Shown here one piece after another: positions 1 through 63,687 of a stretch of DNA of 64,000 bases. Position 1 is the first letter of the stretch. Each line of letters begins with the position of its first letter. The notes under the pieces were generated by a model. It saw only the letters and a list, made by a program, of their open reading frames with translations. It ran no database searches and was not told where the DNA came from. The DNA comes from Cardiobacteriaceae bacterium (GTDB lineage: Bacteria > Pseudomonadota > Gammaproteobacteria > Cardiobacteriales > Cardiobacteriaceae), in NCBI GenBank assembly GCA_030525785.1, contig JAUNEA010000002.1, positions 124,001 through 188,000 of the forward strand, given 5' to 3'. The position numbers and the translations under genes are program-made.

Positions 1-1022
1 GCGTGCAACTTTCTGCAATTATCGAAGCGCTTTCAGGCGGTAATTTGTTGTTGATGTTGATTTTGGTTGCTGGCTTTAGCTTGATTTTGGGCATGGGCTT
101 GCCAACAACGGCAAACTATATTGTGGTTTCTTCCTTGATGGCGGTGGTTATTGTGGAGGTGGGCAGACAAAATGGCTTGATTGTGCCGATGATAGCCGTG
201 CATTTGTTTGTATTCTACTTTGGCATTATGGCTGATGTGACACCTCCTGTGGGCTTAGCTTCTTTCGCAGCCGCTGCCATTTCAGGCGGTAGCCCCATTA
301 AAACAGGCTTGGTCGCTTTTTGGTACAGCATGCGTACAGCGCTCCTGCCGTTCTTCTTCATTTTCAACACTGATATTTTGTTGATTGATGTTGGCATAGC
401 GAAAGGTATTTTGATTTTTGGTGTAACCATTGTTGCAATGCTTGCCTTTACTTCTGCCACTATGAACTATCTTTTGACCAAAAATCGTTGGTATGAAACG
501 GCGCTCTTAGTATTAGCAACGTTGTTATTGTTCCGTCCAGGCTTATTTATAGAAAAAATTTCACCATCTAGTGTGAAAGTTTCGCCAGAGGTCTTTTTAC
601 AGGATTTGGAACGAGCGCCTGTGGGGCATAAAATTTTGTTGCAAGTCTCAGGATTAAATGATGTTGGCAAACCTATTACCTTCTATTCTGAGTTGCCCAT
701 TCTTAAAGGTGAGAATAGCGAAGAACGCCTAAGCGCTTTGGGATTAACCTTAAAACCTACTGATGACACTATTGAGTTCAATGGGCAGATGGTGAAAAAA
801 ATCATCATTGATGATGTGACTACCGATTCTCTGGCGCAAAAAGCTGGTTTGGATTGGGATCAAGTGATTTTGAGCGTGGTGTTGCCTGTGGAAGGAAGTT
901 TGGCGAAGGAATGGGCCTTTATTCCTGGCATTGGCTTGTATTTGTGGGTTATTTATTTGCAGCGTAGACGCGTGAACAAAGCGCTTTTGCGTGGTAATGT
1001 GGAAACGTCCGTAGTGTCATAA
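1..1022 (+). CDS. TRAP transporter fused permease, C-terminal part (5' end outside window)
   Basis: This is the C-terminal part of a TRAP transporter membrane component of the 4TM/12TM fused class, which imports an organic solute with a periplasmic binding protein and an ion gradient. The reading frame is open at base 1, so the start lies upstream. The first roughly 170 visible residues are strongly hydrophobic and contain the DctM-type stretch GLPTTANYIVVSSLMAVV and the loop MADVTPPVGLASFAAAA. The last 150 residues form a soluble region resembling the DUF3394 tail found on many fused TRAP permeases, followed by a final hydrophobic segment and a basic end. The substrate cannot be read from this part. 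A universal stress protein gene follows after 11 bp, an arrangement seen with other TRAP systems. Confidence 0.88.
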   Translation, partial: VQLSAIIEALSGGNLLLMLILVAGFSLILGMGLPTTANYIVVSSLMAVVIVEVGRQNGLIVPMIAVHLFVFYFGIMADVTPPVGLASFAAAAISGGSPIKTGLVAFWYSMRTALLPFFFIFNTDILLIDVGIAKGILIFGVTIVAMLAFTSATMNYLLTKNRWYETALLVLATLLLFRPGLFIEKISPSSVKVSPEVFLQDLERAPVGHKILLQVSGLNDVGKPITFYSELPILKGENSEERLSALGLTLKPTDDTIEFNGQMVKKIIIDDVTTDSLAQKAGLDWDQVILSVVLPVEGSLAKEWAFIPGIGLYLWVIYLQRRRVNKALLRGNVETSVVS

Positions 1023-1033
1023 GTGGAGGGCTT

Positions 1034-1447
1034 ATGTTTGAGAGAATTTTGATTGCATTGGATTTGGATTATCTCGACCACATTGAGAAAACCAAACAAG
1101 CAGCTTTTGCCTTAGGGGGCGATAAAGCGCTTTATCAGCTGGTGACGGTATTGCCTCCTTTAGGAGGGAGTATGGTTTCTTCTTTCTTACCTGTAGGCTA
1201 TGAGAAGAAAATTATGGCTGGTTTGCAAGAGCGTTTGCATGAGGTAAGCGCTTTGCATTTTGCAGGCAAGCAAGTGAAACATATTGTGGCACATGGCACG
1301 GTTTATGAAGAAATCAGTCAAATTGCTGATAAAGAACATAGCGATGTGATTGTGGTTATCACAGGAAAATCCAAAGGTCAGGCTTTGGGGCCAAATGCGG
1401 CGCGTATTGCGCGTTATTCGCACAAACCTGTCTTTATTATTCGTTAA
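1034..1447 (+). CDS. Universal stress protein, UspA family
   Basis: A 137-residue single-domain UspA-fold protein. It opens with the typical first strand and turn MFERILIALDLDYLDH and ends with the nucleotide-loop region ITGKSKGQALGPNAARIARY followed by a KPVFIIR strand. Length and both ends match the family. The start has a good ribosome site (GGAGG, about 6 nt upstream). It lies 11 bp after the TRAP permease and is probably co-transcribed. In Halomonas the Usp protein TeaD sits beside a TRAP transporter and modulates it; a similar regulatory role here is inference from position. The glycine-rich loop differs from the strict GxxGx9GS/T form, so ATP binding is uncertain. Confidence 0.85.
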   Translation: MFERILIALDLDYLDHIEKTKQAAFALGGDKALYQLVTVLPPLGGSMVSSFLPVGYEKKIMAGLQERLHEVSALHFAGKQVKHIVAHGTVYEEISQIADKEHSDVIVVITGKSKGQALGPNAARIARYSHKPVFIIR

Positions 1448-1464
1448 AACAAAGGGGTCTTAAC

Positions 1465-2403
1465 ATGAAACGTTCCTTATCGGTGATTTTAATCAGCGCA
1501 GCATTGAGCAATATTGGCATAGCGCAGGAAGCTGCTGTTAATCCTTTAGCATTGCCTGCATTGGAGGAAGGAAAATGCACGGCACTTGTGGTGGTTCCTG
1601 CAAAATTTGAACCACGCACTGAGCAGATTGTGATTAAAGAAGAAAGCAAAACCATTGACATTGTGCCAGCAGAGTACGAATGGGTTGATGAGAAGGTGGA
1701 AGTGAAGCCTGAGACAAAGCGCTTAGAAGTTATTCCTGCTGTTTTTGAAACGGTTGAAGAAGAGATTGTGATTGAACCTGCAACCGTAAGCAAAGAAGTG
1801 ATTGCACCACAATACAGTGATGTTGTTGAAGAAGTGGTAGCCAAACCTGCCCATCGTGCGATTCGTAGCGAAGGTAGCGCCAGAACTTTCTCCAATATGG
1901 GCGAGGCATTGCGGGTAGAAGAAGTGCCAGCGCAACATGAGAAAATTGTGAAGAAAGTGGTACAAGAGCAGGCAGCCGTGAAAGAAAGTGTGATTGAGCC
2001 AAAGACTATGCTGGTGAAAAAGCAGGTTTTGGTTGAAGAAGCGCGGACACAAGAAGTGATTGAGCCTGCGGTTTATGAAACAGTGCGCGTGAAGAAATTG
2101 GTGAAAGAAGCGCAAGAAGTTGAGCGTGTGATTCCTGCTGAATACGCGGAAGTAACGGTATTTGAGAAGGTTTCTGATGCAGAAGTTCGTTGGGAACAGG
2201 TGGTTTGCCAGAATGAATCCAACACCAATGTTATCGCGGCCGTGCAAAGCGCTTTGAAAGAGCGTGGTTATAAAGTTGGCACGGTTGATGGCGTGATGGG
2301 GCGTGGTACGCAAAAAATCCTTGAGAAATTCCAAAAGGATAACAATCTTGCTGTTGGTGGTATCACGGAAGAAACCTTGAAAGCTTTGGGAATTAATCCT
2401 TAA
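1465..2403 (+). CDS. Secreted peptidoglycan-binding protein with degenerate internal repeats
   Basis: A 312-residue exported protein. Residues 1-20 form a signal peptide ending near GIAQ. Residues about 40-240 consist of degenerate repeats of 20-30 residues built around [IV]PAxYxxV followed by charged strands such as EKVEVKPETK and EEIVIEPATV. Residues about 255-312 form a PG_binding_1 domain (VQSALKERGYKVGTVDGVMG, then a TQKILEKFQ helix), expected to bind peptidoglycan in the periplasm. Cys38 and Cys248 bracket the repeats and could form a disulfide. The repeat section is unusually rich in Val, Glu and Lys. No catalytic domain is visible. A structural or anchoring role is inference; I do not recognise a named gene. 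A strong terminator follows directly. Confidence 0.75.
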   Translation: MKRSLSVILISAALSNIGIAQEAAVNPLALPALEEGKCTALVVVPAKFEPRTEQIVIKEESKTIDIVPAEYEWVDEKVEVKPETKRLEVIPAVFETVEEEIVIEPATVSKEVIAPQYSDVVEEVVAKPAHRAIRSEGSARTFSNMGEALRVEEVPAQHEKIVKKVVQEQAAVKESVIEPKTMLVKKQVLVEEARTQEVIEPAVYETVRVKKLVKEAQEVERVIPAEYAEVTVFEKVSDAEVRWEQVVCQNESNTNVIAAVQSALKERGYKVGTVDGVMGRGTQKILEKFQKDNNLAVGGITEETLKALGINP

Positions 2404-2436
2404 TGGCTTGAGCCAAAGCGCTTTGGTTTAAAATCT

Positions 2437-2466
2437 AAAAAACCTCCACTTCGGTGGAGGTTTTTT
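2437..2466. terminator. Bidirectional intrinsic terminator
   Basis: A perfect 7-bp stem CCTCCAC/GTGGAGG closed by a TTCG tetraloop, with an A-tract on the left and a T-tract on the right, so it can work on both strands. It lies between the convergent peptidoglycan-binding protein gene and the antiporter gene. A CAAAGCGCTTTG palindrome sits immediately to its left at 2414-2425. Confidence 0.92.
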
Positions 2467-2485
2467 GTTAGGTAATCAAAGCGCT

Positions 2486-3565
2486 TTACGGCACAATCAC
2501 GGTGAATACATAAGCCGATAAATTCACCAGTAATACAATGCCATACAGCATATTCGTTCTGCCTTGACTGAGCGATAACATCGTGATGAATAAAGATAAG
2601 CAAAGCAAAATCATCGATTTCCAATCTAAACCCAAAATCATCGGAATATCATAGATTAAGCACACCATCGCTACCGCTGGAATGGTTAGACCAATGCTCG
2701 CCAATGCAGAGCCTAAGGCTAAGTTGATGCTGGTTTGTAGGCGATTGTGTTTTGCCGCACTCAGTGCCGCCATGCCTTCAGGCAACAGCACCACCGCCGC
2801 AATAATAACCCCCACCAAAGCCAATGGCGCACCCATAGAAACCACCAGCTTTTCAATGGTTGGAGAAAGCGCTTTGGCGAGCAAAACCACAATACCCAAA
2901 CATACCACCAATAAGCCTAAACTACCCAATGTTACAGCTGTTGAAGGGGGTGGTAAATGATGGTGTTGGTTGTCATCATCGGCGATAAAGTAATCACGAT
3001 GGCGAACGGTTTGCATCATGATGAACGAAAAATAAAGCACCAACGAAGCAATAGCAACGAAAATCAGCTGAGCTTTGTTGTAAGTGCCAACAGGTGAGCT
3101 GGTGGTGAAGTTGGGTAAGACTAGCGTCAGTACCAAAATGGCGACCAATGTCACCAAAGCCATTGTCGCGGATTTTTGACCAAACATCTGGATTTTGTGG
3201 CGTAAGCCGCCCATCATTAAGCAGCCACCTAAAATGCCATTCAAAATCAACATGATGGCAGCAAAAACGGTATCACGCGCCAAATAAGCTGTGTTATCTC
3301 CGCCTGCAACCATCAATGAGATAATGAGCGCTACTTCAATGACCGTAATGGCTAGTGCAAGAATGATGGTACCAAAAGGCTCTCCCACTTTATGTGCTAC
3401 TACCTCCGCATGATGCACCGCCGATAAGACACTACCAATCAATAAGCCACTGGCAAGGATTTGCAACAAAGCGCTTTCTTTGATGCCAATGAAGTATAGA
3501 ATCCAAGCAAAAACAGGAAGTAATGCTGACCATAAGGGAATTTTGTTTAAATTCGTTTGCGCCAT
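2486..3565 (-). CDS. chaA: Sodium/potassium/calcium-proton antiporter, ChaA type
   Basis: A 359-residue inner-membrane antiporter of the calcium/cation exchanger superfamily. It contains two related alpha-repeat signatures: GEPFGTIILALAITVIEVAL around residues 62-81, and GAPLALVGVIIAAVVLLPEG around 243-262. Each carries the conserved Glu expected in the ion path. About eleven hydrophobic segments are visible, split by a hydrophilic DDDNQHHHLPPP loop near residue 200. In Escherichia coli ChaA exports Ca2+, Na+ and K+ against protons at alkaline pH; the same role is inferred. The start has AAGGA 7 nt upstream. The gene is monocistronic, convergent with the upstream gene and divergent from tgt. 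Confidence 0.85.
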   Translation of the reverse strand: MAQTNLNKIPLWSALLPVFAWILYFIGIKESALLQILASGLLIGSVLSAVHHAEVVAHKVGEPFGTIILALAITVIEVALIISLMVAGGDNTAYLARDTVFAAIMLILNGILGGCLMMGGLRHKIQMFGQKSATMALVTLVAILVLTLVLPNFTTSSPVGTYNKAQLIFVAIASLVLYFSFIMMQTVRHRDYFIADDDNQHHHLPPPSTAVTLGSLGLLVVCLGIVVLLAKALSPTIEKLVVSMGAPLALVGVIIAAVVLLPEGMAALSAAKHNRLQTSINLALGSALASIGLTIPAVAMVCLIYDIPMILGLDWKSMILLCLSLFITMLSLSQGRTNMLYGIVLLVNLSAYVFTVIVP

Positions 3566-3683
3566 AGAAATCCTTAATTTATCTTGATTATGATGAAGAA
3601 ATAAGCTTTTCTCTCAGGGCATTGTAACAAAGGCTTAACCTGTAAAGCGCTTTGCGTGAGCGGAGCATCGAGCGATTTTGAGG

Positions 3684-3689
3684 TATGAT
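3684..3689 (+). promoter_or_regulatory. Possible -10 box for tgt
   Basis: TATGAT lies 25 bp before the tgt start in the 149-bp divergent gap with the antiporter gene. No good -35 hexamer is present at 16-18 bp spacing, so this is a weak call. Confidence 0.35.
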
Positions 3690-3711
3690 GAGGGTTTTTC
3701 TCTATGGATAA

Positions 3712-4824
<1,113 letters not shown>

Positions 4825-4858
4825 GTAATGCTACCTCAGAGGATAGGGTAACTTGCGT

Positions 4859-4864
4859 TATAAT
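4859..4864 (+). promoter_or_regulatory. Possible -10 box for yajC-secDF
   Basis: TATAAT lies 72 bp upstream of yajC, just after the tgt stop. No clear -35 hexamer is visible, so secDF may also be read from upstream of tgt. Confidence 0.4.
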
Positions 4865-4935
4865 GCCCCTTTCACACTCAAAGCCCCAAAGCGCTTTGAG
4901 TGCTTCTTTTGACTTGAAACGATACGGAGATTTTT

Positions 4936-5388
4936 ATGTTTTTCATTCAAACAGCTTACGCCCAACAAGCAGCAGCACCACAAGGTGGTGGCATGGGTTC
5001 GATGTTGATGCTGATTATTATGTTTGTGGTGATGTATTTCTTGATGATTCGCCCACAGCAAAAACGTGTGAAAGAGCATCGTGAATTGGTAGCGGCGCTG
5101 AAAAAAGGCGATGAAGTCGCAACCAGTACAGGTTTGATGGGCAGAATTGTGGCACTTGATGACTTTGCCGTAGATTTAGAAGTGGCGAAAAATACTGTGA
5201 TTCGTATCCAACGACCTTTTGTGGCAGGTATTTTGCCCAAAGGCAGCTTAAAAGCAACTTTGGGCAGCAAAGCAGCGAATGAAGAAGCCTCTGAGCCTGC
5301 AAAAGTTGAAAAGGCGGAGAAAGCGCCTGAAGCCCCAAAATCAGCAGATGATGCTCAAGCTGAGCCTAATGGTTCTGAGCAAAAATAA
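4936..5388 (+). CDS. yajC: Sec translocase accessory subunit YajC
   Basis: A small inner-membrane protein that associates with SecDF and SecYEG. It is 150 residues long, longer than the roughly 110 of E. coli. One transmembrane helix is visible (MGSMLMLIIMFVVMYFLMI, about residues 17-35), followed by the family hallmark RPQQKRVKEH, a basic cytoplasmic domain with KKGDEVATSTGLMGRI, and an Ala/Glu/Lys-rich tail from about residue 115. The tail is low-complexity and explains the extra length. GGAG lies 7 nt before the ATG. Position between tgt and secD confirms the identity. Confidence 0.95.
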   Translation: MFFIQTAYAQQAAAPQGGGMGSMLMLIIMFVVMYFLMIRPQQKRVKEHRELVAALKKGDEVATSTGLMGRIVALDDFAVDLEVAKNTVIRIQRPFVAGILPKGSLKATLGSKAANEEASEPAKVEKAEKAPEAPKSADDAQAEPNGSEQK

Positions 5389-5446
5389 GCACCTTTTACA
5401 ATGATAATCCCCACAAAGCAAAGCGCTTTGTGGGATAGGAGCAATT

Positions 5447-7306
5447 ATGCCGAAAGTTTTCGCCACTTGGAAATATGGGCTGATTTTGGCGGTTACGCTA
5501 ATGGGCACCTTATTGGCGTTGCCTAATATTTTTGGGAAAAGCCCAGCAGTTCAAGTGCAATTTAAAGATGAAGTGGTGGCACAACAAGCCGTAATACAAA
5601 TAGATTGGGGAGGTCTTAATCCTATTCGTTGGCAACAAGTGGGCAATAAAGTCGATTTCTTCTTTGCTGGAACAGATGCTCAGTTGCAAGCCAAAGATTT
5701 GCTGGCAAAGCGCTACCCTGATGCCAATGTCGCGGTTAATTTACTACCAAATACACCGCAATTTTTGCAAGATATGGGCTTAACGCCAATGAATTTGGGC
5801 TTGGATTTGCGCGGTGGGATTTCGTTTTTGTTGCAAGTTGATGTGAATGAATTATTGACGCGTAAAAGTAACGAATTGCTGGAATTGGTAACTGATAATT
5901 TGCGTAAAGCTAATCTTTCCTTCCAAGAGATTGAGATGTTGAAAGAAGGTGGGGTATTAGTCTATTTCAGCGATGACGAAGGGCGCGAACAAGCCCTCAA
6001 TGCGCTTTTCCAATATTTGCCACATGATGTGCAACGGTTGAAAACGGCAGAGAATGGTCGCCTTGCTTTGCGTTTGCAATACACAGAAGAGGGCATAAGC
6101 GCTTTGAAACGCCGTGCGGCAGAGCAGAACCGTATTCGCATGTCAGGGCGTGTGAACAGCTTGGGCGTTGCAGAGCCTTCGATTCAAGTAGTTGGCGATG
6201 ATAGAATTTTGGTGCAATTACCAGGAATTCAAGATGTAACGCAAGCCAAAGAATTGCTGGGTTCAACAGCAACGCTCGAATTCTATATGGTTGATGAACA
6301 AGCAGATATTGCCCAAGCAGTTAAAATGGGTCGTGCAACACTACATAGCAAGCTAGCCTATTTTGAAGATGGCACACCTATTGTACTGAAGCGTAAAGTC
6401 ATTATGAGTGGTGAGCATATTACTGATGCAGTTGCTAATCCTTATGGGCAAAGTGGCCCTGAGGTTCATGTAACCTTAGACAGCGCAGGTGGTTCACAGA
6501 TGGCACAAATTACGCGCGAAAATCTGCAAAAACAAATGGCAACGATGTATGTGGAATACATTCCTGTCACGCGCCAAAATGCAGAAGGCAAACCTGAAAC
6601 CATCGTCGAAAAACGCGAAACTGTGGTGAATGCTGCAACCATTCAAGGTCAATTCGGTGCAAACTTCCAAATCACAGGCGTTTCTCCTGTTTCACGTGCG
6701 GAAAAACTGGCTGCAACTTTACGTGCTGGCTCATTGGTTGCTCCTGTTTATATTATTGAAGAGCGTACAATTGGCCCTTCAGCAGGTCAGAAAAATATTG
6801 ATCAAGGCATGAGTGCATCTTTGCTTGGTTTGGTTTTGGTAATGTTATTTATGGGGATTTACTACAAGAAATTGGGTTGGTTTGCCAATATTGCTTTGGT
6901 GTTCAACTTGATTCTGCTGGTTGGTCTCATGTCGATGATTGGGGCAACTTTAACCTTGCCAGGTATTGCAGGAATTGTGCTGACACTGGGTATGGCAGTT
7001 GATGCTAATGTGTTGATTTATGAGAGGATTCGTGAGGAATTGGTGCAAGGTATTCAGCCCACTGAATCTACAAGACAAGGCTTTGCCAATGCGCTTTCAA
7101 CCATCGTTGATGCCAACATCACCACATTGATTGTTGCCATTATGCTGTTTAGCTTTGGCGCAGGTCCTATTAAAGGCTTCGCTGTGACCTTATCGTTGGG
7201 TATCTTAACCACTATGTTCAGCGCTATTTTCGTCACCAGAGCTTTGGTAGAGTATTTCTTACTACGCAATCCTAAGCCTAATTTGGGGTTGGAGGTGAAA
7301 AAATGA
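5447..7306 (+). CDS. secD: Protein translocase subunit SecD
   Basis: Proton-driven motor subunit that helps pull exported proteins across the inner membrane. The 619 residues fit the family. One N-terminal transmembrane helix (about 10-28) is followed by a large periplasmic domain with the D1 motif LGLDLRGGISFLLQVD, then a C-terminal block of five membrane helices with GIAGIVLTLGMAVDANVLIYERIREE, the canonical RND-type signature. It overlaps secF by 4 bp (ATGA), showing translational coupling. The coding sequence is poor in the AAGCGCTT palindrome compared with most genes here. Confidence 0.97.
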   Translation: MPKVFATWKYGLILAVTLMGTLLALPNIFGKSPAVQVQFKDEVVAQQAVIQIDWGGLNPIRWQQVGNKVDFFFAGTDAQLQAKDLLAKRYPDANVAVNLLPNTPQFLQDMGLTPMNLGLDLRGGISFLLQVDVNELLTRKSNELLELVTDNLRKANLSFQEIEMLKEGGVLVYFSDDEGREQALNALFQYLPHDVQRLKTAENGRLALRLQYTEEGISALKRRAAEQNRIRMSGRVNSLGVAEPSIQVVGDDRILVQLPGIQDVTQAKELLGSTATLEFYMVDEQADIAQAVKMGRATLHSKLAYFEDGTPIVLKRKVIMSGEHITDAVANPYGQSGPEVHVTLDSAGGSQMAQITRENLQKQMATMYVEYIPVTRQNAEGKPETIVEKRETVVNAATIQGQFGANFQITGVSPVSRAEKLAATLRAGSLVAPVYIIEERTIGPSAGQKNIDQGMSASLLGLVLVMLFMGIYYKKLGWFANIALVFNLILLVGLMSMIGATLTLPGIAGIVLTLGMAVDANVLIYERIREELVQGIQPTESTRQGFANALSTIVDANITTLIVAIMLFSFGAGPIKGFAVTLSLGILTTMFSAIFVTRALVEYFLLRNPKPNLGLEVKK

Positions 7307-8223: not shown

Positions 8224-8489
8224 ACCCAAAGCGCTTTGTTCTTTGGAATAAGTCATTTGTGCTTTACTCGGGGCTTTGCCCCGAACCCCAGCAGGGGCAT
8301 GATGCCCCTGCACCCCGCAAAGTATTTTAAAAAGTAAAACCCCCACCAAAACTTTGTTTTGAGTGGGGGTTTTACTTTTTAATGCTCTGGGGTCAAGGGG
8401 TGTAACACCCCTTGTGGGGGCTTGGGGGTGAAACCCCCAAATAAAGAATCAACACCTTATTCCAAAGAATAAAGCGCTTTGGGTTTAAG
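8219..8489. repeat. Nested palindromic element between convergent genes
   Basis: A 34-bp inverted repeat (left arm 8219-8252, right arm 8456-8489, one mismatch) encloses about 200 bp of non-coding DNA. Each arm starts with the stop codon of one of the two convergent genes and contains AAAGCGCTTT. Inside lie further palindromes: CGGGG/CCCCG at 8269-8283, GCAGGGGCAT/ATGCCCCTGC around 8291-8311, an 18-bp terminator stem at 8330-8380, AAGGGGTG/CACCCCTT at 8395-8413, and TTGGGGG/CCCCCAA at 8423-8441. No transposase gene or target duplication is seen. It could be a compound bidirectional terminator or a small non-autonomous repeat. Confidence 0.85.
8330..8380. terminator. Strong bidirectional terminator for secF and hmuV
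   Basis: An 18-bp perfect stem (8330-8347 with 8363-8380) carries an internal CAAAA/TTTTG extension in the loop. The stem has C-runs flanked by A-rich and T-rich ends, so both strands end in a U-rich tail. It sits in the centre of the nested palindrome between the convergent genes. Confidence 0.88.
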
Positions 8490-32777: not shown

Positions 32778-34319
32778 ATGCAATTAAATCCTGCTGAAAT
32801 TAGCGGTTTTATTCAAGATAAAATTGCTAACTACGATAAAAAAGTAGAAAGCAAAACCGAAGGTACGATTATTAGTTTGGCTGATGGTATTGCACTTATT
32901 CAAGGTTTAAGTCAAGTGATGTTAGGGGAGATGATTGCATTTCCTGGTAATGTTTATGGTTTGGCGTTGAACCTTGAGCGTGATAGCGTTGGTGCAGTTA
33001 TTTTGGGTGAATTTGACCACTTACGTGAAGGTGATAAAGTTACTTGCACAGGAAAAATTCTCGAAGTTCCTGTTGGTGCTGAGCTCTTGGGGCGTGTAGT
33101 CAATGCGCTTGGTAAAGCGATTGATGGTAAGGGTGAAATTAAAACTCAATTAACCTCTCCAATTGAAAAAATTGCTCCAGGCGTCATCGAGCGTCAATCA
33201 GTTGATCAACCCTTACAAACAGGTTTGAAAACCATTGATACAATGGTGCCAATTGGTCGTGGTCAGCGTGAGTTAATTATCGGTGACCGTCAGACAGGAA
33301 AAACAGCTATTGCGGTTGATGCTATTATTAATCAAAAAAATACTGGTGTTAAATGCATTTATGTTGCAGTTGGTCAAAAAGCCTCTTCTATTGCGGCAGT
33401 CGTTCGTAAGTTAGAAGAGCATGATGCATTGAAACATACGATTATTGTTGCAGCAACAGCTTCTGATAGTGCTGCATTACAATTCATTGCGCCTTATGTT
33501 GGTTGTGCGATGGGCGAGTACTTCCGTGACCGTGGTGAGGATGCTTTGATTGTTTATGATGATTTAACCAAGCAAGCTTGGGCTTATCGTCAGGTATCAT
33601 TATTGTTACGTCGCCCACCTGGTCGTGAGGCTTATCCAGGCGATGTTTTCTACTTACATTCACGTTTATTGGAGCGTGCATCTCGTATTAATGCTGCAGA
33701 AGTTGAGCGTTTAACCAACGGTGAAGTTAAGGGTAAAACAGGCTCTTTGACTGCATTGCCTATTATTGAAACTCAGGCTGGTGACGTGTCTGCTTTCGTT
33801 CCAACTAACGTTATTTCTATTACAGATGGTCAGATTTTCTTAGAAACCGATCTCTTTAACTCAGGTATTCGCCCTGCGATTAATGCTGGTTTGTCTGTTT
33901 CTCGTGTAGGTGGTGCAGCTCAAACGAAAATTATTAAGAAATTAGGTGGTGGTGTACGTTTAGCCTTAGCGCAGTATCGTGAATTGGCAGCATTTTCACA
34001 ATTTGCTTCTGATTTAGACGATGCAACACGCAAACAATTAGAGCATGGTCGTAGCGTAACAGAATTAATGAAACAAAAACAATTTTCTCCATTAAGTGTG
34101 GGAGAGTTGGCGGTTTCCTTATTCGCGGCAGATAAAGGCTTTTTATCAGGTATTCCAGTTGAAAAGATTGGCGCCTTCGAAGAAGGATTATTGCGCTTTA
34201 TGCACAGCGATTATGCAGACTTGATTAAGCATTTGGATCAAACAGGTGCTTATGATAATGATATTGAAGCACAATTGACTAAAGCGCTTACAAGCTTCAA
34301 AGAAAAAGGCGTTTGGTAA
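32778..34319 (+). CDS. atpA: ATP synthase F1 subunit alpha
   Basis: Regulatory nucleotide-binding subunit of F1, 513 residues as in E. coli. Walker A is [15 protein letters not shown], and [17 protein letters not shown] is the ATPase alpha/beta signature. The N-terminal [14 protein letters not shown] helix contacts delta. It lies 15 bp after atpH with AAGGA upstream. The second palindrome of the operon is near its end (TKALTSF). Confidence 0.98.
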
Positions 34320-34329
34320 GGAGTCGGCT

Positions 34330-36644
<2,315 letters not shown>

Positions 36645-36651
36645 GGTGCTT

Positions 36652-37113
36652 ATGTCAGGAACATTTCAACTAACGATTGTGAATGTGGATCGTCATTGGT
36701 TTGCGGGTGAAGTACAATCTTTGGTTGTTCCAACCTCAACAGGAGAATTGGGTGTGCTAGCTGGGCACACTCCATTTCTTGCCATGTTAGGCACAGGTAG
36801 ATTGCGTTTGGTACGAGCTGGAAGCCAAGAAGAAGAAAGTTTTTTTGTTTCCGGTGGATTTGTAGAGATTCAAGCTAAGCAAGTAGTTGTGCTGGCTGAT
36901 GAATTAATTGCATCAGGTACAGACGCTGAAATTGCTCAAGCACAGGAGCGTATTGCATCGCGTGCTGAGCGTTATAAGCAAACATTGCTGGCAGCTGCTT
37001 CTCATGAACGAGCGGAAGTAAGCCAAACCGATATTGATCGCGCACAGGTTATGCTGGAGCAATCTCTTTCTCAAATGGCATCGTTGCAACGGATTAATAA
37101 AGTGGTTTTCTAA
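36652..37113 (+). CDS. atpC: ATP synthase F1 subunit epsilon
   Basis: Inhibitory rotor subunit, 153 residues from ATG 36652. The N-terminal beta-sandwich includes TIVNVDRHWFAGEVQSLVVP, GELGVLAGHTPFLAML and FFVSGGFVEIQ; a C-terminal two-helix hairpin follows. The frame opens at GTG 36646, but the ATG with GAGG about 5 nt upstream is preferred. It closes the operon, with a terminator 28 bp after the stop. Confidence 0.96.
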   Translation: MSGTFQLTIVNVDRHWFAGEVQSLVVPTSTGELGVLAGHTPFLAMLGTGRLRLVRAGSQEEESFFVSGGFVEIQAKQVVVLADELIASGTDAEIAQAQERIASRAERYKQTLLAAASHERAEVSQTDIDRAQVMLEQSLSQMASLQRINKVVF

Positions 37114-37169: not shown

Positions 37170-37251
37170 GGACATTAAATGTTGTTGTTTTAATTTTTCG
37201 GTTGAAGAAATTTACTTGATTCTTATACTACTTGTTGTATTCCTAAAAAGA

Positions 37252-37282
37252 AAAGCGCTTTGGTATTAAACCAAAGCGCTTT
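37252..37282 (-). terminator. sucD terminator made from two palindrome copies
   Basis: Two copies of the genome palindrome, extended to AAAGCGCTTTGGT and ACCAAAGCGCTTT, form a perfect 13-bp stem around a 5-nt loop. On the minus strand a T-rich run follows. It lies 21 bp after the sucD stop. The use of paired short repeats as a terminator resembles paired DNA uptake sequences in Neisseria and Pasteurellaceae. Confidence 0.85.
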
Positions 37283-37303
37283 GTGTTTTTAGCTAACCAA
37301 TGA

Positions 37304-41250: not shown

Positions 41251-41373
41251 GAGAAATAGCAGGCTTATCTTAACGGAAAATTAATACGTTAGGGGGAAAT
41301 GATGTATAAAGCGCTTTGGAGGAAAATCCAGAATCTTGGGAATATCTCTTGAGGGCAAAGCGCTTTGTGTAGG

Positions 41374-54750: not shown

Positions 54751-54778
54751 TTTTTAATAAACTTGCTTAGCTTGTCAA
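54751..54778 (-). promoter_or_regulatory. Probable livK promoter
   Basis: On the minus strand a perfect -35 TTGACA (54773-54778) is followed after 16 bp by TAAAAA (54751-54756). The -35 lies in an inverted ACTTG/CAAGT pair (54761-54780) that could bind a repressor. It is 55-80 bp upstream of livK. Confidence 0.6.
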
Positions 54779-54810
54779 GTGATTTGTGAATGGTAAGGAG
54801 GGAAAAGGTA

Positions 54811-55371: not shown

Positions 55372-55424
55372 ACTGGGGTTAGAAATATGAAACAAAGCTA
55401 GCCTATTATTTTGGAGAACCATTG

Positions 55425-57253: not shown

Positions 57254-57288
57254 TTTTACCGTTTTAAGGTTTAAAGGAAGAAAAGATG

Positions 57289-57918
57289 ATGAGTCAGGTT
57301 TTTGAAATCAAACACCCTTTGCTCCAGCATAAATTGACGGAGTTGCGTAAAAAAGAAACGCCTACAATGGTTTTCCGAGCTTTAACCGCAGAAATTGGCG
57401 TGATGCTGGGTTATGAGGCCACGCGAGATTTAGAACTGGAATCTATCACCATTGAAACTCCTGTAGAGCAAACTCAAGCCCCTCAGTTAAAGGGTAAAAA
57501 ACAATGTATCGTGAGTATTTTGCGAGCAGGCAATGGCTTATTAGATGGCGTGTTGCGTTTGTTGCCAGCAGCGAAAGTTGGGCATATTGGTATGGAGCGT
57601 AATGAGGAAACTCATCGACCCTATGCGTATTACTGCAAATTGCCAAAGCGCTTAGAGGAGCGTGTGGTATTGGTGGTTGATCCTATGTTGGCAACGGGGT
57701 TTTCTGCTATTGAAAGTATTAATAAAATCAAAGAGCTTGGCGCTAAAGACATTCGCTTTATTTGTATGTTATCTGCGCCTGAAGGCATCAAAGCGCTTCG
57801 TGAGGCTCACCCTGATGTGCCAATCTATACGGGCTCTATTGACCGAGAGCTTAACCAAAATGCTTATATTTGTCCTGGTTTAGGTGATGCAGGGGATCGT
57901 TTGTATGGCACACTGTAA
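57289..57918 (+). CDS. upp: Uracil phosphoribosyltransferase
   Basis: Salvages uracil to UMP with PRPP. 209 residues. PRPP-binding motif VVLVVDPMLATGFSAIESI and the C-terminal uracil site YICPGLGDAGDRLYGT. Tandem ATG codons at 57286 and 57289; the second matches known starts (MSQVFEIKHP). It overlaps the next gene by 14 bp. Confidence 0.97.
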   Translation: MSQVFEIKHPLLQHKLTELRKKETPTMVFRALTAEIGVMLGYEATRDLELESITIETPVEQTQAPQLKGKKQCIVSILRAGNGLLDGVLRLLPAAKVGHIGMERNEETHRPYAYYCKLPKRLEERVVLVVDPMLATGFSAIESINKIKELGAKDIRFICMLSAPEGIKALREAHPDVPIYTGSIDRELNQNAYICPGLGDAGDRLYGTL

Positions 57919-58633
57919 CGTGTTCCGCCATCGATTCTTACCCTCGTTCAAAGCGCTTTGTATGCTGGCACTTCTGTGCGGTTTGCCGGCATGGGGGTTA
58001 GAGAATTATCGCGCGGTGTATGAGGTAGAGATTCGCGGTATTCGTGCTGGTGAAATGACGCTTGATAGTATCACTACTGCTAAAACCTATCGCCTCGATG
58101 CGCGTACCGAGCCATCAAGAGCAGCCAAGATGCTGGGTTATGGTGCGATTCGTGAGCATGTTCATGGGCGCTTACAGGGTGGGCAGATTTTGCCAGAACG
58201 TTATGAGCGTGAGATGATAGGCGATGAGGATTATTATCTGAACTATCAGTATGATGCAAAGGGGAAACAGGTTCAGGTTCAGAAAGGAAAAAGCGCTTTG
58301 ACGCTGGATTATGTAGACGGCAAACAGGCACTTGATATTCTTTCTCTGATCACACAAGCTTTACTTGATGAAGAACAAGGAAAAATGTCGAATGTTTATC
58401 ATCTGTTGAGTGAGGATAAACTACGAACCTACCAAGTTCGTCAGCTGAAAGACGAACAATGGAAAGAAAAAAACGGCAAGGTTTTGGATATTAAGGTGTA
58501 TGAACAAACCAACGGCGGACGTAAAACCTTAGTTTATTTGGCACAAAACCCCTTGCGTCTTGCAAAATTACAACAACTGCGTGACAATGAACCCCGTTTT
58601 AGCTTGAAGCTCCTTGACCACCAAATTCGCTAA
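57905..58633 (+). CDS. Exported DUF3108-like protein
   Basis: A 242-residue protein from ATG 57905, which has AGGGGA 8 nt upstream and lies inside the end of upp. An N-terminal signal-like segment (LCMLALLCGLPAWG) is followed by alternating strands: YRAVYEVEIRGIRAGEMTL, then GYGAIREHVHGRL, ILPERYER and YQYDAKGKQVQVQKGKSA, the pattern of DUF3108 periplasmic proteins. A palindrome copy encodes FKAL in the signal peptide. Function unknown; a lipid- or glycan-binding beta barrel is possible but not shown. Confidence 0.7.
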   Translation: MAHCNVFRHRFLPSFKALCMLALLCGLPAWGLENYRAVYEVEIRGIRAGEMTLDSITTAKTYRLDARTEPSRAAKMLGYGAIREHVHGRLQGGQILPERYEREMIGDEDYYLNYQYDAKGKQVQVQKGKSALTLDYVDGKQALDILSLITQALLDEEQGKMSNVYHLLSEDKLRTYQVRQLKDEQWKEKNGKVLDIKVYEQTNGGRKTLVYLAQNPLRLAKLQQLRDNEPRFSLKLLDHQIR

Positions 58634-58645
58634 TTTTTTGAATCT

Positions 58646-59584
58646 ATGAAAGTTTTATTGCTTACGCCCAAACACCCACCAAGTTACACTGATGATTTGT
58701 ATTTGGCGTTGCGTGCGAAGGTAGGAACCTGTGATTTTTATCCTCTTGATGAACGCCAAAGTAGTAATCTGGAGGAATTTTTCGCGCGCCATATTCGGTT
58801 GGCGCATTTTGATCGTATTCTTTTGATGTTTGATGGGAAGTTTATTTACGAACAAAGCCCATTTTTGCGTCGCTTACCAACGTTAGGCGTGTTATCGTTA
58901 AATTATGATGGCAATGATGCCTTGATTAATAAGCGCATGATTTCCAACTTCACCACGATGCCTTGGCTACGTTGGATTGGTTCGAATTTGGAGCTTTGTC
59001 ATCAATATCAAGATCAAGGCTATGATGCTTATTGGATTCCTTCTGTCTTTGATAATCAGAAGTTTGTGCAACGAATTCGCAAACGCGTTACGCGCTATTG
59101 TTATGTTTACGGTAATAAAGCAGCGTGTGATTTGGTGAGCGAGTCATTATCACATGCGATGTCGGTCATGCCGTTAAGCAAGGAAGAAGTGTTGAATGAT
59201 GATTCAATCCACTTTGCAAGCGAGGATATTTTTGTTTTTTGGCCTGATACGCATGATAACGATATGAGCCCGATGATTAAGGCAATGGCATGCGGTGCAG
59301 CGGTGGTGAGTCGAGATGTGAGCATGGAGAAGCGCGTGCTGTATGGTTGGCATGAAGGGCGCGATATGCTTTATGCAACCGATGAATTGCATTTGATTCG
59401 TTTGTTGCGTCAATTGGTTTTAGATGAAACGCTGATTCGTACACTTTCTCATCATGCTGTGCAAAAAGTTAAGCTTTTTTATCCACAGACGGTTGGTAAG
59501 CGTATTGGGGCGCATTTGGAGGTTCCTGTTCGTAATCCAGGCGATTATCGTATGAAACAACGTATTTTTGGGTTTGATATTTAG
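58646..59584 (+). CDS. Glycosyltransferase-like protein (GT-B type)
   Basis: A 312-residue soluble protein. It opens with a Rossmann-like strand MKVLLLTPKHPPSYTDDL, has a central switch region IPSVFDNQKFV, and ends with a GT-B nucleotide-sugar region: EDIFVFWPDTHDNDMSPMIK leading to AMACGAAVVSRDV, as in group 1 and CgeB/YkvP-like transferases. The usual EPFG Glu position reads DNDMSP, so donor binding may differ or be lost. It contains no AAGCGCTT copy, unlike its neighbours. The next gene starts directly after its stop codon. Substrate unknown. Confidence 0.6.
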   Translation: MKVLLLTPKHPPSYTDDLYLALRAKVGTCDFYPLDERQSSNLEEFFARHIRLAHFDRILLMFDGKFIYEQSPFLRRLPTLGVLSLNYDGNDALINKRMISNFTTMPWLRWIGSNLELCHQYQDQGYDAYWIPSVFDNQKFVQRIRKRVTRYCYVYGNKAACDLVSESLSHAMSVMPLSKEEVLNDDSIHFASEDIFVFWPDTHDNDMSPMIKAMACGAAVVSRDVSMEKRVLYGWHEGRDMLYATDELHLIRLLRQLVLDETLIRTLSHHAVQKVKLFYPQTVGKRIGAHLEVPVRNPGDYRMKQRIFGFDI

Positions 59585-61012
59585 ATGCAAACTTGGCGTG
59601 CCATTCTGCAAAACATTTGGCAAAGCGCTTGGGGATACCAAGCGCTTTTACTGATTTTAAGCGCCATAACCTCTTTCATGCTATGGCATTTTGACCATCA
59701 AACCTTAAGCGTTTACTCTGTGCAACAACTGTGGCAAAGCGCTTTGATGCCCGAAACACTGTGGCAACAGGTTTTACACCCCTTCTCAGGCGAGGAGCAT
59801 CGAGTGATTTTGCTGATGGGATTGCTTTCCAGCGTGAGTTTAGGGCTGTTTGCAGCGGTGTCGTTGCTTTTAGGTTTGAGTCGGCAGACGACATTGGTCT
59901 TGGTGCTTTTGATGAATTTTAACCCAGAATACAACGATGTACGTTTAAGTCTTGATGTTTTTCAGCTCATCATACCGTTGTGGCTTTTGGGGCTGTGGGG
60001 TTTACTGACCTATTACGCTCATCATCGGCTGAAAGCGCTTGGTTTGTGGACAGGTTGCTGGTTATTGGGCGTGATATTGGAACCTGCAACTTTACTGGTT
60101 GGGCTGGGTTTTCCTTGCTGTTTTGCGGTATTGGAGCATAAGGTCTCGAAAACATGGGGTATGTGGTGGCTGGGTTATGCCCTATTGGCTGGTTTGTTTG
60201 TTTTGCTTTTGCCACATACGCGAGAATTTGTGGTGCAATGGTGGGCATCGCTGAGCCACACCAAGCCTGATGCCTCTTCTTACTTCTTCCCATTGGGAGA
60301 TGGGCGTAGTTTAAGCTTAAGCGCTTTGCAATATTATGGCTTGGCTCTGGTGTTGGTATTGTTTAACTGGGCGAGATGTGCAGGTTTGGTGATTGTGGGT
60401 TTGGTTCTGGTGGGCTTACGCGCAAAAGTGACCTCTGTACTGGTGCCTCGTATTCGTTATTTCTTGTGGTTTGGCTTGTTGTTCATGGCTCTGTTATTGT
60501 CCTTTTTGTGGGTGCATATGGGGCGATGGTTTGGAGATTTGGCGTATATGCCATTGGTGATGGTGGGATTATTGCTGACTTCTGGTGCCGTCTTCTACAG
60601 TTTGGAACGCATGCGCCGTTTGTCTGATGTGCAGCGTTTGGTGTTGTTTTGGCTAGGTGTGAGCTACGCTTTGGCAAGTATGATGAGCTTTGGGCCAAGC
60701 GCAGGGCATTTGCGTGAGGCAGGTTTGTGGACGCATCATCATTTAGCCACTTTCGAACAAAGCGCTTTGCCCCAGAAGTTGCTCTACAGCAACAGCCCTC
60801 AAGCTTTATTTTACGCAGGTGTTTCGCCATTGGAGCGAGACGAGCATTATCGTCTTGACGTTTTAAGCGATGATTTGCCAAGTGATGCTTTGATTCTTTA
60901 CAGCCATTATCGCCATGCGCCATTGCCTGAAGATTTCAAGCGCTTTGAAACGCTGGCAAAGTTTACCAATCAGCACGGCGACCAAATTTACGCCTTGCGC
61001 TCTTCTCCTTAA
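59585..61012 (+). CDS. Polytopic membrane protein, possible GT-C-like
   Basis: A 475-residue protein I do not recognise. About ten hydrophobic segments span residues 18-375, including LLLILSAITSFMLWHF and VILLMGLLSSVSLGLFAAVS, followed by a C-terminal soluble domain of about 85 residues (LLYSNSPQALFYAGVSPLER, ALILYSHYRHAPLP). A multi-helix body with a C-terminal periplasmic domain and an acidic loop near FNPEYNDVRLSLD after early helices is reminiscent of GT-C transferases, but this is inference. It begins immediately after the stop of the transferase-like gene. Eight palindrome copies are present, three in the first 150 bp. Confidence 0.6.
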   Translation: MQTWRAILQNIWQSAWGYQALLLILSAITSFMLWHFDHQTLSVYSVQQLWQSALMPETLWQQVLHPFSGEEHRVILLMGLLSSVSLGLFAAVSLLLGLSRQTTLVLVLLMNFNPEYNDVRLSLDVFQLIIPLWLLGLWGLLTYYAHHRLKALGLWTGCWLLGVILEPATLLVGLGFPCCFAVLEHKVSKTWGMWWLGYALLAGLFVLLLPHTREFVVQWWASLSHTKPDASSYFFPLGDGRSLSLSALQYYGLALVLVLFNWARCAGLVIVGLVLVGLRAKVTSVLVPRIRYFLWFGLLFMALLLSFLWVHMGRWFGDLAYMPLVMVGLLLTSGAVFYSLERMRRLSDVQRLVLFWLGVSYALASMMSFGPSAGHLREAGLWTHHHLATFEQSALPQKLLYSNSPQALFYAGVSPLERDEHYRLDVLSDDLPSDALILYSHYRHAPLPEDFKRFETLAKFTNQHGDQIYALRSSP

Positions 61013-61027
61013 ACCCTAAGATTGACC

Positions 61028-62011
61028 ATGAGTTCTTCACTGTTGGACGTTCATTTATCACGTCTTGAGCCAACGCAATTACGCGCCCTTCGTCATCATT
61101 ATCAAATGGGCATCACCAGCACCATGCAAAGCGCTTTGACCGACTCTCCTCATGATCCCATTGCGGCGCAATTTGTGCCTGATGTGCGAGAGTTGGAGGT
61201 GCGTGAGGAGGAGCTTTCTGATCCCATTGGTGATGAGCCCCATAGCCCTGTGCCAAGTTTGGTGCATCGTTATCGGAATCGGGGTTTATGGAAAATCAAT
61301 AGCCACTGCGCGGTGTATTGTCGTTTTTGCTTTCGTAAAGAACAGATTGGCAAGAAAGGGCAGGGGGTGAGTGATGAGATGCGAGACAAAGCGCTTTGCT
61401 ATCTGCGTGAGCATCGAGATATTGAGGAATTGATTTTAAGTGGCGGAGATCCTTGGTTTTTAAGCCCAAAACGGTTGGCGCATTTTGTGTTGCCTGTGGG
61501 CGAAATGGCTCATATTCGCCGTGTTCGGATTCATACGCGTATGCCTGTGGTGGAACCTTCTGCGATAACAGAAGAATTGTTGGGCTTATTTAGCAGCTTG
61601 CCACAAAGTATCCATGTGGTGATTCATATCAACCACGCTCAAGAACTCACGCCTCCAGCGATTTCTGCTCTGGCAAAGATGAGGCAATCAGGCATGATGT
61701 TGTATTCGCAAAGTGTGTTGTTGAGGGGCGTGAATGATCGTGTTGAGGTGCTGGCTGATTTGATGAACAGGCTGCTTGATGTGGGTGTGATGCCGTATTA
61801 CTTGCACCATCTTGATCTTGCCAAAGGCACCAGCCATTTTCGCCTTACGCTTGCTGAAGGCAAAGCGCTTTATCAAGCTTTGCAACAGCGCCTTTCAGGC
61901 ATTGCCTTGCCGCGCTATATGGTTGAAATACCAGGTGGCGGCGGTAAAGTGCCTGTGATGTCGTTGAGTGATGAAGAATTATCTCATTTACAGCAGTTGG
62001 GATTGAATTAG
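61028..62011 (+). CDS. epmB: EF-P-(R)-beta-lysylation protein EpmB (lysine 2,3-aminomutase family)
   Basis: Radical-SAM enzyme that makes (R)-beta-lysine for attachment to elongation factor P by EpmA. 327 residues. The [4Fe-4S] cluster Cys triad is in NSHCAVYCRFCFRKEQIG (CxxxCxxC); PLP-site and barrel motifs include LILSGGDPWFLSP, RIHTRMPVVEPSAI and VEIPGGGGKVPVMS. The ATG at 61028 is preferred over the TTG at 61022. efp and epmA are not in the window. Length and lack of the long C-terminal part distinguish it from clostridial KamA. Confidence 0.9.
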   Translation: MSSSLLDVHLSRLEPTQLRALRHHYQMGITSTMQSALTDSPHDPIAAQFVPDVRELEVREEELSDPIGDEPHSPVPSLVHRYRNRGLWKINSHCAVYCRFCFRKEQIGKKGQGVSDEMRDKALCYLREHRDIEELILSGGDPWFLSPKRLAHFVLPVGEMAHIRRVRIHTRMPVVEPSAITEELLGLFSSLPQSIHVVIHINHAQELTPPAISALAKMRQSGMMLYSQSVLLRGVNDRVEVLADLMNRLLDVGVMPYYLHHLDLAKGTSHFRLTLAEGKALYQALQQRLSGIALPRYMVEIPGGGGKVPVMSLSDEELSHLQQLGLN

Positions 62012-62019
62012 GAGGCGAG

Positions 62020-63687
62020 ATGGCAAAGCGCTTTGAAGGTGGCTGGGCGAGATGGGGCTTTGCGCCTCGTTTGTTGGATTTGCGAGAGGGTTATACAGGG
62101 GCGCAAGCTTTGCGCGATGTAGGAGCAGGAATAACTGTAGCAATGGTGGCATTGCCTTTGGCGATGGCATTTGCGATAGCCTCAGGTTTGCCTCCACAAG
62201 CAGGCTTGTTTACTGCAGTGGTGGGTGGCTTTTTGATTTCGTTCTTGAGTGGTTCGCCTGTGCAAATTGGGGGGCCTGCTGGAGCGTTTATTGTGGTGGT
62301 TTATGGCATTGTGCAAGAGCATGGTGTTACAGGGCTTTGGGCTGCCACTTTCCTTTCTGGTGTAATGCTTTGGCTGATGGGCTTTTTGCGACTGGGCGTT
62401 TTGATTCAGTTTATTCCTGTGGCGGTTATTTTAGGCTTTACCAACGGCATTGCGGTGTTGATTGCTTTTTCGCAGATAGCTGATTTTTTGGGGCTAAGTT
62501 TGTCGGAGAAGCCAGCGGCATGGTGGGCATTGGTCAAAGCGCTTTGGACTGCTCGACACAGTTGGAGTGGTGAGGCTGTGTTGGTGGGTGTGTTATCGTT
62601 GATGGCGATGATTGTGTGGCATCAGATGCAAGGTATGTGGCGTGGTCGTTGGAGAATGCTCGCCTTTGTGCCAGCTTCTTTGTTGGCGCTGTTGGTGTCG
62701 TTGGGTGTTGTTTGGAGCTTGGGTTTACAGGTTCAGACTATTGGTTCGCGCTTTGGTGGCATTCCACAAGGCTTACCGCCACTTTCTGTGCCTGATTTTC
62801 AACAGCTAAGCGCTTTGTTCAAACCAGCATTTACACTGGCAATCTTGGGGGCTATTGAGTCGTTGTTATGCGCACGGGTGGCGGATTATTTGCTAAACGA
62901 TAGGCATCATGCCAATCAAGAGCTGATGGCACAAGGTGTTGCCAATATGCTGACACCTTGGTTCAGCGGTATGCCAGCTACAGGAACGATTGCCCGAACG
63001 GTAACGAATATCAAAAGTGGTGGTCGTACACCGATTGCAGGCATGACACATGCCTTAACAATTTTGGGCGTGATGCTGCTGTTTGCTCCATTCGCGCAAT
63101 ACATTCCCTTGCCTTGCTTAGCAGCGATTTTGTTGTTTGTGTCGTGGAATATGGGGGAATGGAAGGCTTTTGTGGCGCTTAAAAGCTATCGAGTGCCGTA
63201 TCGTTTGACGTTTCTAGCGGTGTTTGTGCTGACGGTGGTTGTGGATTTAACGGTTGCTGTTTTGGTGGGTATGGTGCTGGCGATGGTGATTGTTCTTTAT
63301 CGATTGTCGCAATTGATGGAGGAGGAAGTCGTGGACGTGCGCGAAGGCGTGGTGATGGTCAGTTTTCGTGGGGCATTGTTTTTTGGTGCAGTGCAACATT
63401 TGGCAGCGTGGGAGGAGAGTTTGCCTAAGAAGCGTCTGATTTTGGATTTGTCAGGCGTTATTTATATGGATAGCACAGGCGCGGAAGCATTAAGCGCTTT
63501 GTGGCGCAAAAGCGAGAGTAAAGGGGTGGATTTGTGGTTGTGTGGTTTGCGTCCTCAGGTTCTTTCGATGATTGAACGCGTGGGTTTGGCAAAGTATTTA
63601 TCGTACCCACCTTTTACCGATAGCCAAAGCGCTTTGTTGTTGGATACACAAATACATGAACGAGTGGAGAAGGTAGATGGAGCTTAG
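62020..63687 (+). CDS. SulP-family anion transporter with STAS domain
   Basis: A 555-residue SLC26/SulP transporter: about 12-14 membrane segments (residues 30-415) with AGITVAMVALPLAMAFAIASG, QAGLFTAVVGGFLISFL, GSPVQIGGPAGAFIVVV and ATGTIARTVTNIKSGGRTPI (segments abbreviated), then a cytoplasmic STAS domain (about 430-545) with LILDLSGVIYMDSTGAEAL. Family members carry sulfate, bicarbonate or dicarboxylates; the substrate is undetermined. GGAGGCGAG precedes the ATG. A palindrome copy begins at codon 2 and encodes AKRF. Confidence 0.92.
   Translation: MAKRFEGGWARWGFAPRLLDLREGYTGAQALRDVGAGITVAMVALPLAMAFAIASGLPPQAGLFTAVVGGFLISFLSGSPVQIGGPAGAFIVVVYGIVQEHGVTGLWAATFLSGVMLWLMGFLRLGVLIQFIPVAVILGFTNGIAVLIAFSQIADFLGLSLSEKPAAWWALVKALWTARHSWSGEAVLVGVLSLMAMIVWHQMQGMWRGRWRMLAFVPASLLALLVSLGVVWSLGLQVQTIGSRFGGIPQGLPPLSVPDFQQLSALFKPAFTLAILGAIESLLCARVADYLLNDRHHANQELMAQGVANMLTPWFSGMPATGTIARTVTNIKSGGRTPIAGMTHALTILGVMLLFAPFAQYIPLPCLAAILLFVSWNMGEWKAFVALKSYRVPYRLTFLAVFVLTVVVDLTVAVLVGMVLAMVIVLYRLSQLMEEEVVDVREGVVMVSFRGALFFGAVQHLAAWEESLPKKRLILDLSGVIYMDSTGAEALSALWRKSESKGVDLWLCGLRPQVLSMIERVGLAKYLSYPPFTDSQSALLLDTQIHERVEKVDGA

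Follow-up and report, generated by a model that had tools for sequence, protein, structure and literature searches.

A putative uptake-sequence-like palindromic mark at high density in the genome of a Cardiobacteriaceae bacterium

The window analyzed here, a stretch of 64,000 nucleotides from a Cardiobacteriaceae bacterium (assembly GCA_030525785.1, contig JAUNEA010000002.1, positions 124,001 to 188,000), carries a short palindrome along its whole length, within and between genes. The octamer AAGCGCTT was counted 155 times, the hexamer AGCGCT 168 times, AAAGCGCTTT 97 times, and the 12-mer CAAAGCGCTTTG 51 times. The first core is found at position 25 and the final one at 63627; the gap averages 413 bp, in agreement with the initial annotation, which had described about 155 sites at one per roughly 410 bp. 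With genes called as greedy longest open reading frames by a purpose-written script rather than a gene finder, 135 sites were coding, 18 were intergenic, and 2 straddled a gene end. An excess of more than 100-fold over chance had also been claimed, and this holds only when equal base frequencies are assumed (64000/65536 sites expected). An order-3 Markov model trained on the window gave 10.9 expected sites, corresponding to a 14-fold excess, which is an underestimate because the sites themselves inflate a window-trained model. When the sites were masked in training, 1158 copies of AAGCGCTT were found against 15.1 expected in a 432-kb sample of the genome (77-fold), and the full CAAAGCGCTTTG was found 468 times against 0.17 expected.

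The window's own genome (G000; 18 contigs, 1,617,100 bases, 93.67% complete) contains 4391 copies of AAGCGCTT, or 2715 per Mb (about one per 370 bases), and the reversed-pattern control gave 41. The enrichment is thus neither confined to the window nor close to the Markov expectation, the two outcomes that had been named as counting against the proposal. As a control, TTCGCGAA flatters modest counts in many genomes, and 5- to 10-fold ratios elsewhere were not taken as enrichment. Coverage of the readable stretches was even, with 44 to 66 sites per full 20-kb stretch; one short locus reading as N was left out. Peptides, one-off sites, spacing, and pilins were analyzed in a 792-kb sample that represents 49% of the genome and includes the window. 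By the same type of gene call, 1701 of the 2083 classified sites fell within predicted genes (46 of 2129 sites straddled gene ends and were dropped), but site density was higher in intergenic DNA, at 5.74 per kb versus 2.34 per kb in coding DNA. A basecalling artefact was judged unlikely, as it would need to write 12 bases. One stretch of contig C12 (L160:13747-20000) is site-free over at least 6.2 kb and carries tex and DpnII-type methylases; it is possibly a recent import.

The consensus of the site is CAAAGCGCTTTG, with inner 8 bases that are nearly all-or-none. Among 1156 sites (2 of the 1158 lay near stretch ends and were dropped), the outer consensus was T/A in 86% at ±5 and G/C in 70% at ±6, and almost no signal was detected further out. 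The two half-sites varied nearly independently: both were full in 468 sites, one was full in 562 (287 and 275), and none in 126. A slight compensation between the halves was seen, in that about 24 sites with neither A nor T at ±5 were expected and 12 were counted. The near independence of the half-sites indicates genuine two-fold symmetry of the palindrome, and with it the earlier description of a palindromic motif on a 12-mer consensus stands. A non-palindromic mark with an accidentally palindromic core is ruled out by the near-independent half-sites and their equally conserved flanks. In the 12-mer context, 846 sites were perfect. Of the sites with one mismatch, 577 differed at the outermost position and 157 at the one inside it, and the four core positions together accounted for 36. 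The low number of core one-offs relative to perfect sites indicates that broken sites are removed. Of these 36, 19 were transitions, and C to T at the central CpG was the commonest change (11 of 36). For the bare octamer, 710 one-off loci were found against 2129 perfect ones (ratio, 0.33). In the 432-kb sample, bare-octamer one-offs numbered 386 versus 312 expected from the Markov model; much of this class is background, and few of its members are therefore decay products. The variant AAGTGCTT had an observed/expected (O/E) ratio of 2.5 in that sample.

The sites have imposed marked peptide excesses on the proteome. In the proteins of the sampled half of the genome, QSAL occurred 450 times against 8 expected, SAL 848 times against 164, KAL 592 times against 133, and KRF 225 times against 25; the same four peptides reached 1.0 to 2.4 times expectation in two relatives, G003 and G006. 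Homologues with at least 40% identity over 80 residues were required, which left 156 proteins; in these, identity to the homologues was 43% at motif codons (565 of 1307) but 63% elsewhere (32302 of 51229). A gap in the homologue overlapped 20 of 387 sites. After exclusion of the 24 sites that had no gap-free alignment, the homologous 8-mer differed by 2 to 6 bases in 295 of 363 alignments to the two relatives, indicating that the sites arose by point substitution. The site itself was present in the homologue in 3 of 220 cases for G006 and in none of 143 for G003. An origin by substitution was likewise suggested for DNA uptake enhancing sequences, in the part of that study available to us (PMC1939737). 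The site is so evenly spaced and so strictly maintained that it has altered the amino acids of many proteins.

The spacing of the sites was compared with 300 permutations in which the coding and intergenic totals were kept. Gaps shorter than 100 bp were depleted (275 versus 481 ± 16), gaps of 100 to 400 bp were in excess (1177 versus 870 ± 21), and gaps longer than 800 bp were again depleted (169 versus 242 ± 10). Pair counts showed repulsion out to about 100 to 150 bp and none further. Within genes, the pair ratio was 0.18 below 20 bp, 0.76 at 80 to 100 bp, 1.04 at 100 to 150 bp, and 1.21 at 200 to 300 bp. No clear helical phasing was found among gaps of 20 to 200 bp. Three decoy hexamers in the same DNA were random or slightly clustered, and so was the highly iterated palindrome of cyanobacteria (HIP1, GCGATCGC) on 350 kb of plasmid A of Trichormus variabilis, the plasmid DNA that served as the HIP1 control (224 sites, 217 gaps). 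On this plasmid, 56 gaps were shorter than 0.28 of the mean against 53 expected, and 21 were shorter than 100 bp against 14. Close gaps thus stood at 0.44 to 0.67 of expectation for AAGCGCTT in G000 but at 1.01 to 1.09 for plasmid HIP1. The spacing sets AAGCGCTT apart from HIP1 and places it nearer to uptake sequences. The difference between repulsion within 100 bp and random HIP1 placement suggests, from one HIP1 plasmid, a simple test to separate marks selected for coverage from marks driven by mutation.

The same spacing bears on an alternative in which an intracellular two-fold symmetric protein organizes the chromosome, in nucleoid structure, segregation, or replication, and selection favors a site every 150 to 400 bp. 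Nearer sites would be useless under this alternative because each bound complex would cover about 100 bp. The repulsion range resembles a nucleoprotein footprint, and the within-gene excess at 150 to 300 bp, the even coverage, the palindromic consensus, and the nearly independent half-sites are all consistent with it. However, six site-free stretches of 2.3 to more than 6 kb occur in the 792 kb, no candidate protein was found in G000, and no sequence-specific organizer is known to have sites as dense as one per 370 bp. We consider a chromosome organizer unlikely, though the strongest of the alternatives.

Some sites occur in close intergenic pairs, and the hairpins predicted at two such pairs in the window are listed in Table 1. 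Pairs 20 to 30 bp apart numbered 28 against 17.9 ± 4.3 expected; other close intergenic distances were not enriched, and pairs 40 to 200 bp apart were depleted (0.15 to 0.41), which may be explained by the presence of one site per short intergenic region. The 58 intergenic pairs less than 60 bp apart lay between tandem genes in 38 cases, convergent genes in 15, and divergent genes in 3, with 2 left unassigned. Four stretches of the window were folded in total. Both pairs folded better than all 200 shuffles, but two single sites did not stand out (z, 0.59 and −1.44), so that the intergenic hairpins noted in the initial annotation are borne out for close pairs and not for the single sites tested. 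The second pair is situated 16 bp after a minus-strand gene stops, upstream of the following gene. By their predicted folds, some close pairs look like terminators. Pairs of DNA uptake sequences (DUS) and of uptake signal sequences (USS) form hairpins and serve as terminators likewise.

Table 1. Positions of the palindrome array and of selected features in the window
Feature	Position	Strand	Basis or details
AAGCGCTT array of 155 sites, including 51 full CAAAGCGCTTTG	25..63634	.	Motif counts
Example of the full 12-mer CAAAGCGCTTTG	2245..2256	.	Motif positions
ATP synthase gamma, beta, and epsilon genes (longest stretch of the window free of sites)	34289..37113	+	34330-35247, 35265-36644, 36646-37113
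Close pair 37253/37274 (distance, 21 bp) with convergent genes on either side; long stem-loop with a U-run after it, resembling a terminator	37251..37283	.	Predicted fold −24.9 kcal/mol, z −5.4
Close pair 41309/41358, 49 bp apart; predicted stem, no U-run noted	41307..41367	-	z −3.7

The counts in relatives that the initial annotation had called for indicate that most of them lack this density. Among 32 genomes of the order (G000, 11 other genomes of the family, and 20 further genomes of the order), only three exceeded 235 copies: G000 with 4391, G006 with 1674 in 2.3 Mb, and G010 with 1427 in 2.1 Mb. In a sample of 369 genomes of the class, none except G000 exceeded 378 copies, and the six densest of 80 named gamma- and betaproteobacterial loci around metG had at most 3 sites. 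Two genomes of genus g2, in the same family, had 4 and 7 copies, and AGCGCT was absent from a 100-kb sample. In the samples of G001 and G007 (L136-L140; 100 kb), neither AGCGCT nor ACGT was found, and there were several 5-methylcytosine (m5C) methylase matches per genome; here restriction has apparently led to avoidance of the very hexamer that multiplied in the genus of G000. A scan of viral_contigs returned four stretches with a pair of sites 200 to 230 bp apart and just 2 sites each, and phages were rejected as carriers. No description of AAGCGCTT or of an uptake sequence in Cardiobacterium relatives was apparent among the open-license literature matches listed, in line with the earlier statement that none was known.

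G006 and G010 belong to one sister genus (g7) of the same family and have about a quarter of the density of G000; G010 is 78% complete and was sampled over 12.6 kb only. The core of G006 lies chiefly between genes (3.30 versus 0.32 per kb in coding DNA), although its coding density is still about 5 times that of G003. The core stands in arrays of alternating palindromes, in which AT-flanked AAGCGCTT alternates with TGAGAAAATTTTCTCA (e.g., L125:6140-6300 and L128:19050-19160). Tracts of TTTT and AAAA flank it at a distance of about 15 bp, and 132 of 526 gaps are exactly 31 bp. The full CAAAGCGCTTTG was not found in 782 kb of G006. The absence of the 12-mer and the different array with its 31-bp pitch rule out that the element of G006 is the same as that of G000, and the count in G006 is therefore a separate case. 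The 8-base core common to two genera of the family may point to an ancestral protein that read AAGCGCTT. LacI-type helix-turn-helix (HTH) matches were found only in G006 and G010 among the 12 family genomes searched. The common core, the pitch of about three helical turns, and the LacI-type protein of G006 would suit a chromosome organizer, but this protein family was not found in G000. The word AAAGCGCTTT appears in 24 papers, and among the 20 titles listed, two mention CcpA and one mentions LacI-family regulators; an interpretation as a CcpA/LacI-type operator was rejected, as G000 has no LacI HTH. Other interspersed words were seen in the samples of relatives: a second family around GTAGGGACGTAGC in G006, with about 12 copies in 102 kb, and a repeat with AGTCAGGAACA-type words in G003, with 9 to 12 copies in 60 kb.

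Another explanation is a mobile repeat, of the repetitive extragenic palindrome (REP) or miniature inverted-repeat transposable element type, that was copied across the genome. The core of G006 does lie inside a longer intergenic repeat, and the likeness to REP and other intergenic palindrome families holds only for that genome. In G000, conservation stops at 12 bp (±6) and the sites are mostly inside genes, which makes this the least probable of the explanations weighed, with hardly any likelihood.

The methylases of G000 were read at four loci. On contig C8, an m5C enzyme adjoins a type II nuclease and a helicase-type protein (L154:52-4076, PADLOC models). C12 carries a Dam and CcrM-like pair with a DpnII-family nuclease after it. 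On C16, a type ISP enzyme of at least 1610 residues unites nuclease, helicase, and methylase in a single chain (L164:15167-19999), and on C11, a type III Mod lies near the contig end, its partner not seen. A further PF02384 match fell below the cutoff. No orphan methylase for a palindrome was found at these four loci, three of which have a nuclease and one of which is a type III Mod, in a genome about 6% of which is missing and in which PF02086 was not searched genome-wide. PF00145 was not found in G006 or G010, nor PF01555 and PF02384 in the 78% complete G010; a shared methylase as the driver gained no support, as none of the three families searched was found in all three enriched genomes. 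The initial suggestion that the motif is a methylase target is weakened by these results, and the search that it had proposed for a co-occurring orphan methylase or binding protein yielded neither. As a separate observation, the C8 set looks like a complete restriction-modification (R-M) system, and the first 4.1 kb of L154 carry three motif sites.

The methylases are central to an explanation in which a methyltransferase marks the core and methylation-dependent mismatch repair makes and keeps the palindrome, which has no function of its own. Such a drive without function is Elhai's proposal for cyanobacterial HIP1, as given in the accessible part of the source (PMC4390886). The octameric GC-centered palindrome at HIP1-like density agrees with this explanation, and the C-to-T changes at the central CpG and the excess of AAGTGCTT are as the decay of methyl-cytosine would give. 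PADLOC also ranks its orphan-methylase model first for the Dam protein, yet the DpnII-family nuclease follows that gene. The nucleases at three methylase loci, the type III Mod at the fourth, the families missing from G006 and G010, and the even spacing of AAGCGCTT in contrast to random HIP1 argue against it, and we regard a methylation-and-repair drive as improbable, more so than a chromosome organizer. It is very improbable that the core is a target of restriction maintained by a selfish R-M system. G000 does have at least three R-M gene sets, and it strongly avoids other palindromes: in the 792 kb, the O/E ratio was 0.04 for CCGG (29 versus 748), 0.11 for GGCC, and 0.17 for GATC, and GGCGCC and CCTAGG were also strongly avoided. 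This avoidance suggests that several systems restrict, or once restricted, this DNA heavily. However, the targets of R-M systems are usually avoided in this manner, while AAGCGCTT is 77-fold in excess, and the related genus g2 lacks AGCGCT in its 100 kb. A DpnII-type system in G000 would fit the avoidance of GATC.

The reading that we favor, with a probability of about 0.42, is that CAAAGCGCTTTG is a putative lineage-specific, uptake-sequence-like mark of self DNA that accumulated by biased DNA exchange. A two-fold symmetric protein, exposed on the surface of the cell or located in the periplasm, would favor DNA with the core AAGCGCTT, and site-bearing fragments from kin would be taken up and recombined more frequently. 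New sites made by point mutation would then spread, mutations that break a site would be replaced, and over time the genome would fill with evenly spaced sites, with many amino acid changes as the price. Some close intergenic pairs may have been reused as hairpins. The receptor, the preferential uptake, and the drive itself are the parts that we infer. An uptake-like drive would account for the origin by substitution, the strict core, the even spacing, the noncoding excess, the hairpin pairs, and the restriction to one lineage. In its favor, ComEC, DprA, and a secretin of the transformation machinery each gave one match in G000.

Several points weigh against the uptake-like reading. ComEC was found in 14 of 15 searched genomes, and DprA and secretin in 12 of 12 each; these proteins do not explain the site because most of these genomes lack it. 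No type IV prepilin was found in the 792 kb of G000, also by stricter scans. The same scan gave 6 in 782 kb (34%) of G006, none in 460 kb of G003, and 1 in the 1.44 Mb of the 80 named loci; the low yields from G003 and the named loci make it a weak test, and the absence from the half of G000 that was read counts mildly against a pilus-based receptor. Known uptake sequences are read by a single pilin subunit. They are also non-palindromic, according to the part of the source at hand (PMC1939737), and USS occur about once per 1,000 bp, as stated in the available portion of another (PMC7811141), far below the 2715 per Mb of G000. The within-gene repulsion extends only to about 100 bp, below the usual length of recombining fragments, and sites beside close neighbors showed no trend toward weakness, which redundancy might predict. 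The pair excess at 20 to 30 bp is modest (2.3 standard deviations), and a T or A run of at least 4 was present just outside 20 of the 58 close pairs, which leaves their role as terminators putative. Lastly, USS spacing is less even than a role in compaction needs, per Bakkali, in the part available (PMC1939737).

Among known systems, the mark resembles USS of Pasteurellaceae and DUS of Neisseriaceae in that it is genome-wide, made by substitution, in excess in noncoding DNA, evenly spaced, and lineage-specific, the USS side of this comparison coming from papers available in part, which describe USS as relatively evenly distributed (PMC7811141, PMC1939737). It differs in its palindromic form, in being 2 to 3 times denser than the Haemophilus influenzae USS average, and in the short reach of its within-gene repulsion. 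The HIP1 parallel drawn in the initial annotation is borne out in form and density: both are octameric palindromes found in and between genes, and their bare-octamer one-off ratios are 0.33 in G000 and 0.48 for plasmid HIP1. The accessible text on HIP1 gives 300 to 2700 per Mb and O/E ratios of 55 to 228 in most cyanobacteria outside group C1 (PMC4390886), and very few bacterial genomes have octamers as frequent as HIP1, as far as the part seen of a further study states (PMC3497702). In contrast to HIP1, the G000 mark has another sequence in another lineage, no cognate orphan methylase at the four loci, even spacing, and 12-mer-context one-offs that sit in the flanks and nearly never in the core. 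Chi is likewise an overrepresented octamer, but it is non-palindromic and read in one orientation. In Escherichia coli, Chi has 1008 copies in 4.64 Mb against 151 expected, in the excerpt consulted (PMC1939737).

A broader interpretation, which we hold tentatively and at somewhat less than even odds, is that CAAAGCGCTTTG is read about every 370 bp by a dimeric protein that imposes even coverage, either a symmetric self-recognition receptor or a sequence-specific organizer, and is a new kind of palindromic genome mark. To our knowledge, neither a palindromic uptake sequence nor an organizer at this density has been described. If this is true, the reading of a palindromic mark by a dimer would have reshaped part of the proteome to a visible degree. 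Most known cases of highly iterated oligomers come from cyanobacteria (HIP1) and from two families of transformable bacteria; G000 is a further setting, with a site density at the top of the HIP1 range. The results show a force outside protein function that is strong enough to put hundreds of peptides such as QSAL into a proteome. Because the mark is missing from the sampled relatives of the genus, comparison offers a way to date when a mark of this kind was gained and to look for its reader.

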